A stretch of DNA of 64,000 nucleotides, taken from contig NZ_WNXX01000003.1 in assembly GCF_009733795.1 (NCBI RefSeq), forward strand, positions 124,001 to 188,000. Reading direction: 5' to 3'. The position numbers were made by a program, and so were the translations under genes. The notes beneath the pieces are model-generated. The model made no database searches. It was not told the origin of the DNA and saw nothing but the letters and a program-made list of their open reading frames with translations. Origin of the DNA: Actinotalea caeni. GTDB lineage: Bacteria; Actinomycetota; Actinomycetes; Actinomycetales; Beutenbergiaceae. This document shows, piece by piece, positions 51,272 to 52,483 of the stretch (position 1 is the stretch's first letter; each line of letters starts with the position of its first letter).

Positions 51272-52081
51272 TCAGGCGCGACGGTCGCGCGGCAGCCAGC
51301 CGAAGGGGTCGGCCTGGGACGCGGGGCTCGCAGGCTTGTACTCGAGCCCGACCCAGCCGTCGTAGCCGCCGGCCTCGAGGTCGTCGAGCCAGACGCCGAT
51401 CGGCAGCTCGCCGGTACCGGGCTGGTCGCGGCCGGGCGCGTCGGCGATCTGCACGTGCGCGACGCGGTCGCGGTGGTGCGTGATGGCGGCCTCGACGTCG
51501 TCGCCGTTGACGGCGAGGTGGTAGACGTCGAGCAGCAGCCCGACGTTGGTGGGACCGTGCTCGCTCGCGACCCGGTCGAGGACCGCGACCGCGTCGTCGG
51601 CGGTCCTGAGCGGGTAGGCGTCGACGCCGCTGACCGGCTCGACGAGCACGGTGCCACCGATGCGCGCCACGGCCCGGGCGGCCGCCGCGAGGTTGCGGGC
51701 CGCCAGGTCGTCCTGCGCGGCGGGGTCGGCGTCGGGCCGACGGTTGCCGTAGAGGGCGTTGAACGCGCGGCAGCCGGTGCGCTCCCCGATCGCGGTGACG
51801 ACGTCGAGGTTGGCGAGGAAGTCGGCCTCGCGCCCGGGCCACGACACCAGCCCGCGGTCACCGGCGGGCATGTCGCCGGCCGCGAAGTTCAGCCCGGTGA
51901 GCTGCACGCCCGCGTCCTGCAGAGCCCCGACCAGCGCGTCGACGTCGTCGGCCTCCGGGGTCGCGGTGGCGAAGGGCCACCACAGCTCGACGGCCTCGAA
52001 CCCCGCCGCCCGGACCGCCGCCGGTCGCTCGAGCAGCGGCAGCTCCGTCAGCAGGATCGACCCGTTGACCGTGAACCTCAT
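51272..52081 (-). CDS. hyi: Hydroxypyruvate isomerase
   Basis: The 269-residue TIM-barrel protein interconverts hydroxypyruvate and tartronate semialdehyde. Motifs: the N-terminal [56 protein letters not shown] (metal glutamate), [14 protein letters not shown] and VGLEYKPAS near the end. It is the first gene of the six-gene minus-strand operon hyi-garR-gcl-glxK-allB-allE and has two IclR-type boxes upstream. ATG 52079-52081. Confidence 0.9.
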
Positions 52082-52106
52082 CACGCTCTCCCGCCATCTC
52101 CATTGA

Positions 52107-52142
52107 TTCCATATCGTGGAAGCGTTCTTCCCGATAGTGGAA
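52107..52142. promoter_or_regulatory. Paired IclR-type operator upstream of hyi operon
   Basis: TTCCATATCGTGGAA (52107-52121) and TTCCCGATAGTGGAA (52128-52142) are 15-bp palindromes of the form TTCCR/C-N5-YGGAA, 21 bp apart centre to centre (two helical turns). The same pair, with the same spacing, occurs before iclR/malic enzyme, the urate operon and aceB, which points to control by the IclR protein of this cluster. Confidence 0.7.
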
Positions 52143-52209
52143 GTGTAGGGAACGGCCGTCAGGACGTCAACACCCACCCACGGCCGCCGTCGCACTCCCG
52201 CCCCGACAC

Positions 52210-52481
52210 TTTCAACCCACTTCCGCCCGAAGACCGGTTTCAACCCACTTCTGCCCCCAGGAACGGTTTCAACCCACTTCTGCCCCGGAGCAGTTGCAAC
52301 CCACTGATGCCCGGGCGCGCGTTCGGTGCGTGTCGTCGCGAGCGCACAAGGCGACAGTGGGTTCGGATCCGGGAGGGGCGAAAGTGGGTTGAAACCCCAG
52401 GAGGGGGCAGAAGTGGGTTGAAACCCCACGAGGGGGCGAAAGTGGGTTGAAACCCCACGAGGGAGCAGACGTGGGTTGAGA
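52210..52481. repeat. Inverted array of 29-bp repeats
   Basis: Nine copies of a 14-bp core surround a centre near 52,330. The left arm has four copies of TTTCAACCCACTTC (starts 52210, 52238, 52267, 52294), and the right arm five copies of its complement, GAAGTGGGTTGAAA (starts 52354, 52381, 52410, 52439, 52468). The four right-hand units are exactly 29 bp apart; the left and central spacings are 27-29 bp. Between cores are related C- or G-rich stretches. The two arms can fold into one long cruciform or hairpin. The array ends 2 bp before the stop of the DUF6986 gene, between two minus-strand genes. It does not look like coding DNA (29 is not a multiple of 3) or CRISPR. Confidence 0.85.
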
Positions 52482-52483
52482 CC

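Follow-up and report, generated by a model that had tools for sequence, protein, structure and literature searches.

REPINs are doublets of REP sequences arranged as inverted repeats and tied to specific RAYTs (PMC3116915), and the TnpAREP proteins are HUH enzymes that have co-evolved with their own REPs (PMC8266576); RAYT-like genes flanked by families of terminal inverted repeats (TIRs) are also described (PMC3733652). The inverted array studied here lies in a 64,000-nucleotide stretch of DNA (the window) from a genome of the genus Pseudactinotalea. It belongs to a system that resembles the REP/REPIN-RAYT arrangement in several respects: the repeats are short, extragenic and present in high copy, inverted pairs are usual, several types occur in one genome, and a nuclease gene is flanked by its own repeat type. 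There are also differences. The likely partner enzyme is an AbiEi-DUF559 protein (hereafter X) with a Vsr-like PD-(D/E)XK domain, not an HUH enzyme; the arms are tandem arrays of 28-29-bp units rather than single palindromes; the consensus units carry neither the GTAG nor the CGTC tag; and the arrays stand right behind stop codons. Moreover, inverted doublets are not better conserved than singlets, as a comparison of two-arm and one-arm loci (L043 left out) gave no advantage to the former (p = 0.63 and 0.12). Because enzyme and tag differ and the doublet-conservation sign is absent, we do not regard the system as a member of the REP/REPIN-RAYT class.

Unit coordinates within the window bear out the description given in the initial annotation, namely nine units in two opposed arms with a 29-bp period (Table 1). 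The left arm contains four units spaced by 28, 29 and 27 bp, while the four units of the right arm are exactly 29 bp apart. With up to three mismatches allowed, the 14-mer core has eight matches in the 64-kb window, all of them within the array, compared with 0.60 on average and a maximum of 4 in 100 shuffles of the window. The contact with the stop codon of the DUF6986 gene was likewise read correctly, and the name hyi proposed for the left-hand gene fits its PF01261 (xylose-isomerase-like) match. The junction is one of two genes in the same direction, with the right arm against a stop codon and the left arm 123 nt from the start codon of the PF01261 gene. Upstream of this start, TTCCATATCGTGGAAGCGT is present twice in imperfect form at a distance of 21 bp, and the pair has the appearance of an operator (52107-52146; about 60 nt from the left arm), and a promoter-like site is found on the minus strand at 52142-52170.

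Table 1. Features of the array and its neighbouring genes (positions in the window).
Feature	Position	Strand	Remarks
Sugar isomerase-like gene (PF01261; hyi of the initial annotation)	51272-52084	-	Same direction as the DUF6986 gene
Left arm	52208-52307	+	C-rich strand on +; the fourth unit has decayed; in the sense direction the family's consensus is GGTTTCAACCCACTTCTGCCCC
Central region between the arms	52308-52380		Holds a ninth, decayed unit at 52350-52363 (GGCGACAGTGGGTT)
Right arm	52381-52483	-	C-rich strand on -; outermost unit directly behind the DUF6986 stop codon
DUF6986 gene, 412 aa	52484-53722	-	PF22484, E = 5.9e-157; stop codon adjoins the array

Folded as RNA, both arms of the window array together reach -175 kcal/mol, as against -115 kcal/mol in shuffles (z = -12), and because the fold is so stable an effect on transcripts is possible. 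The earlier suggestion of a transcription barrier may therefore survive as a side function, although no intrinsic terminator, that is, a stem followed by a T run (U tract in the RNA), was found between 51900 and 52700.

The window array is one representative of a dispersed family. The core AGTGGGTTGAAAC is present in 59 exact copies in the 4.0-Mb genome and a sister core, TTCACCGCACTT, in at least 103, with no match for the reversed pattern in either case; the array is therefore no local accident, which is how it would have been read had it been unique in the genome and absent from all relatives. Arms were called with an array finder of our own and genes with a self-trained codon log-odds caller. 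This procedure found 99 arms in 62 of 63 fetched regions (L213 has none, and L043 consists of two places); the 62 loci come from listed core matches, and the family may hold further loci. Each of the 62 locus entries belongs to one family only; the unit period seen most often is 29 for family 0 and 28 for family 1. A single arm of the 99 falls inside a called gene.

Among the 98 arms with a gene called on the relevant side, 68 follow a stop codon and 30 face a start codon; the distance is at most 5 nt for 36 of the former and one of the latter, and at most 30 nt for 55 and 4. Stop-side arms that begin within 5 nt of the stop are 29 of 36 in family 0 and 7 of 32 in family 1. The C-rich strand mostly runs from the gene end into the gap; this sense strand is 47% C and 15% G in family 0 and 35% C and 19% G in family 1. 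Two or more arms are present at 37 of the 62 entries, and at 35 of these they point inward, the exceptions being L043, with its two separate places, and L035, where they point outward. The remaining 25 entries have one arm, on the stop side in 20 cases. Junctions holding arrays comprise 34 same-direction, 21 convergent and 6 divergent gene pairs, compared with 44, 7 and 7 called in the window.

Some loci depart from this pattern or add to it. Outward arms are found at L035 (3928-4111) and at L054 (3849-4005), where the second arm becomes visible only with weaker units. Another short repeat, CTCGTACG ... CTCGTACGGTGCACGCTACGAG, is found twice inside and beside the array of L057 (3940-4330). In the sister family (L187-L215), 22 of 44 outermost units and 15 of 117 inner units start with ACTTTC, a bias that hints at defined element ends.

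The 7-nt spacers of family 0 offer a view of how the arms arise. Their identity is 0.736 within an arm (46 pairs), 0.365 between the arms of a locus (43 pairs) and 0.441 between loci; spacers of opposed arms compared with the reverse complement reach 0.233 identity, which is about chance and signifies no pairing. Judging from these comparisons, each arm seems to lengthen on its own through tandem duplication, with no selection to maintain an unbroken hairpin.

Several familiar categories were considered and set aside. A CRISPR array is contradicted by the spacers, which are about 7 nt long and often alike within an arm (0.74 in family 0) rather than unique and at least ~20 nt long. No match was found for the array in plasmids or phages, nor for the tandem pattern in viral contigs, and the search for known RNA families gave a single sub-threshold match (16.1 bits versus 58.6). 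The sister unit contains AAGTGCGGT, the Haemophilus uptake core; this match is probably due to chance, since about 100 copies in arrays are unlike an uptake sequence.

The repeats are confined to close relatives in the searches made. The core AGTGGGTTGAAAC was present in 2 of 59 genomes searched, our own and G039 (a single match). A 20-letter pattern with one two-way position, specific to our own species, gave no match in the whole collection. A looser tandem pattern, which accommodates the two families as well as the variant of P. suaedae, was then run against one genome per species for 84,980 species, a collection that may not include our own genome, and yielded 29 stretches, 24 in P. suaedae and 5 in P. 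terrae. Among the matches listed for a single-unit pattern in 297 genomes of the order, units were numerous only in the three genomes of the genus (at least 64, at least 106 and at least 20), and one genome outside the genus had a single match. Unit types differ between species in the matches listed: P. suaedae has CAACGC and CACCGC, often mixed, whereas our genome has CAACCC or CACCGC, unmixed.

For 11 of our loci, the orthologues of both flanking genes surround an array in P. suaedae or in the third genome; these loci were drawn from array-bearing loci only and do not give a rate. At the six with CAACCC units in our genome, the other species has CAACGC or CACCGC in every case; at the five with CACCGC units, it has CACCGC alone (one) or mixed with CAACGC (four). 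In 400 kb of P. suaedae, orthologues of one or both flanks are present for six of our loci, and arrays accompany two of these six and are missing from four. Of the four array-less junctions, both neighbours are unchanged only at L060; in the other three, neighbours have changed or a single flank was matched. Array places are thus partly shared and partly not, and units are alike within a species.

The L060 junction reads ...CCGCTGA/GGTTTCAACCC ... GTTGAAACC/GGGAGACCGATG... in our genome, with 109 nt between stop and start, whereas the two genes overlap in P. suaedae, sharing ATGA, and have no array, indicating that the element comes or goes cleanly. Insertion is the simpler reading; loss in P. 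suaedae is possible, the comparison being a single clean case between two species. No target-site duplication was evident by eye in the flanks of the 35 inward two-arm loci. At one convergent junction, our genome has a GC hairpin (L055, 5147-5207) and P. suaedae an array (L169, 7004-7158), as if hairpin and array were interchangeable.

Of the initial annotation's proposal that the array is a REP/BIME-like element, the dispersal, the tie to gene ends and the presence in relatives hold, while the linked RAYT-type transposase that it suggested looking for was not found in the three genomes of the genus. A profile search for the RAYT domain (Y1_Tnp, PF01797) gave no match in the three Pseudactinotalea genomes, although it worked elsewhere (two matches in G003; 5 of 14 control genomes). 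A different nuclease is linked to the repeats instead. Between far-apart arms, among ordinary genes, AbiEi-DUF559 genes were present at two loci. DUF559 (PF04480) has ten matches in the three genomes of the genus, two in our own, six in P. suaedae (one below cut-off) and two in G001. Four of these ten genes form subfamily X, and all four lie between inward arms, whereas none of the six others has arms within about 1.5 kb on either side. Conversely, among 356 called P. suaedae genes exactly one lies between inward arms, an X gene, and at our own array loci four genes do so, two of which are X. The repeat type varies with the gene: in our genome the X gene of C22 sits in family-0 (29-bp) arms, that of C45 in family-1 (28-bp) arms, and one P. 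suaedae X gene is flanked by a third unit type, GGTTTCAACACGATTCCG. One junction is known in both states, with X in our genome (L045) and as an array without X in P. suaedae (L170), and G001 has arrays and no X. Ordered by similarity to the consensus, the arms at X loci come no higher than 10th of 34 and 4th of 28.

The X protein combines two domains. In an alignment of 18 proteins, chosen by hand from 51 matches, the N-terminal head is AbiEi-like (AbiEi_4 in 14 of 18, the PADLOC AbiEi model in 18 of 18), the C-terminal part is DUF559 in all 18, and residues D228, E239, D241 and G242 of X are invariant. A profile of X matched the solved structures 3hrl (4.4e-11), 3r3p, a mobile-intron protein (0.0055), and, only weakly, Vsr (0.16-0.23); 3r3p is the homing nuclease I-Bth0305I. 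Single-sequence structure prediction of X had a mean pLDDT of 38.5, too low for use. Related proteins have been described in other contexts: a Caulobacter DUF559 protein has been presented as Vsr-like (PMC12907096), and binding of inverted repeats has been reported for an AbiEi antitoxin (PMC7319586). The head of X resembles the antitoxins of AbiE type IV toxin-antitoxin systems (AbiEi), from which X differs in carrying a nuclease domain.

With a match cut-off of 1e-10, X or a relative of X is present in 31 of the 297 genomes surveyed from the order, our own and that of P. suaedae among them. At 54 loci, the 500 nt on either side of the gene were compared with each other for exact inverted repeats of 14 nt or more; six loci with short flanks and seven without a match to the query were dropped, leaving 41, or 38 distinct places after removal of three second copies. 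Such repeats were found at 14 of 38 places, comprising 4 of 4 in the genus and 10 of 34 in other genera, and 24 places have none. The corresponding figures are 0 of 25 for other genes at the same loci, which is the best-matched control and a small one, and 4 of 286 P. suaedae contig genes and 2 of 52 window genes, two controls that come from the genus itself. Fisher tests against 4 of 286 gave p = 1.8e-11 for 14 of 38 and p = 3.6e-8 for 10 of 34, values not corrected for relatedness. The contrast is weaker at 12 nt or more (22 of 41 versus 2 of 25, 33 of 286 and 12 of 52). Counts of any 12-mer in the flanks of X relatives (G137, G267) were discarded because frequent words dominated them, the control medians being 16 and 14.

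Some of these flanking repeats are themselves dispersed, as seen for two of them in selected whole genomes. The two genomes that carry TCGATAGCCGATC contain it 48 and 51 times. It is absent from 12 further genomes of the family, among them three with their own X relative. No called gene contains any of the 30 copies examined, which are distributed over convergent (21) and same-direction (7) junctions, with 2 unassigned. CGTCGAWYTGGYTRC, the repeat of G016 and G019, has 24 and 19 copies in these two genomes with X, and 2 of 25 copies examined are in called genes. It also has 10 and 6 copies in G020 and G021, which lack an X match at 1e-10, and 0-3 copies in eight others; G010 has an X match and no copy. 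In 400-kb samples, one additional place was found for each of two more flanking repeats and none for that of L253 (G137). Several X genes of one genome can differ in their repeats, as in G137 (L253 and L291) and G119 (L285 and L286, with a 13-nt pair at L284). In G137 (L356-L375), CGGACGGCATACCGG occurs 18 times in 400 kb with at most one mismatch, 13 of them in called genes, and also near one X relative.

Starting from dispersal, orientation, stop adjacency, the one clean presence/absence site, the species-specific units and the linkage to X, all of which are documented at the level of sequence, we infer with slightly better than even confidence that X moves or spreads the repeats, in a system that parallels REPINs and RAYTs but uses an unrelated nuclease. 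The array would then be a short non-autonomous dispersed element, made of two inward arms of tandem 28-29-bp units around a short centre, with a preference for the site directly behind stop codons, where it would do least harm. As the putative partner of the repeats, X would read the unit through its AbiEi-type head and cut or nick at the arms or at the target through its Vsr-like PD-(D/E)XK domain, and repair may then copy the arms to new gene ends and homogenise them. The autonomous form would be an X gene between arms, and loci with an array alone, such as the one in the window, would be non-autonomous, as with RAYTs and REPINs. A similar division, between a gene-bearing form that looks autonomous and numerous forms lacking a gene, is seen in TIR elements and MITEs (including TIRYT families), which also share inward terminal repeats and a clean empty site in a relative, here a single one. 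Unlike those elements, the present one has no target-site duplication that we could find and no known transposase between the arms examined, its ends are tandemly multiplied, and its position is tied to stop codons. A broader proposal extends to several families of one order, each nuclease lineage having a cognate repeat: X proteins would form a second, independently evolved class of repeat and nuclease, spreading and homogenising their own families of tandem-armed inverted repeats at gene ends. We advance this tentatively, at somewhat less than an even chance.

The main rival to spread driven by X is that X is a homing-type parasite inserted into pre-existing arrays, which serve as its target and themselves spread by gene conversion, slippage or some other enzyme. 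The Vsr-type nuclease domain of X, with its conserved putative active-site residues, is related to that of the mobile-intron nuclease 3r3p and, weakly, to Vsr; presence and absence of X at the same junction, and the arrays of G001 without X, are also as expected of a homing endonuclease. On the other hand, the nuclease domain of X comes with an AbiEi-type head and is linked to a family of dispersed repeats, no intron or intein came to notice, and the relatives of X elsewhere have repeats of their own that can differ from gene to gene (G137, G119), whereas a target-seeker need not show cognate pairs. We consider this reading unlikely.

Somewhat less credible still is the notion that the arrays are host devices at gene ends, directional C-rich loading sites of the Rho type or long hairpin terminators, maintained by selection and only incidentally linked to X. 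The C-rich strand is indeed the sense strand behind stops, the RNA fold of the window array is strong, and P. suaedae has an array where our genome has an ordinary GC hairpin. However, there are only about 60 such places, restricted to the genus in the searches made; the opposed-arm spacers of family 0 are unpaired, the window array has no U tract, a start codon lies ahead of 30 of the 98 arms, and the four X genes would be left unexplained.

It is very unlikely that the units are binding sites of X, or of another AbiEi-headed regulator or chromosome organiser, and that nothing moves. The fixed 28- or 29-bp period and the inverted-repeat binding reported for AbiEi antitoxins (PMC7319586) would suit such a role; against it, arrays are absent from four of six comparable P. 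suaedae junctions, cleanly so at L060, and lie mostly behind stops and not in promoters. A classical REP/RAYT family with an HUH transposase, which has the architecture alone in its favour, is extremely improbable in view of the missing PF01797 matches in the three genomes of the genus and the lack of a GTAG tag in the consensus units, unless a transposase slipped past the profile.

Spread of the repeats by X, the reading we prefer, has no counterpart in the literature searched. The open-access literature, a corpus outside which most subscription papers and bioRxiv lie, held nothing linking DUF559 to inverted repeats, AbiEi to DUF559, or AbiEi and an endonuclease to repetitive extragenic elements, and nothing on REP elements together with Actinobacteria, palindromic repeats and an endonuclease. 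Judging by titles, none of the DUF559 and Pseudactinotalea literature concerns such repeats, and none of the best matches listed for REPIN with homing endonuclease was on point.

If the proposed partnership is correct, the arrangement of a repeat with a dedicated nuclease, of which RAYT/REPIN is the standard example, would have arisen more than once, and part of DUF559, a Pfam protein of unknown function, would acquire a role. The X genes and their repeats would also offer small natural pairs for studying the sequence-specific spread of short repeats, and they bear on the question of how the bases immediately following a stop codon can be taken up by repeats.
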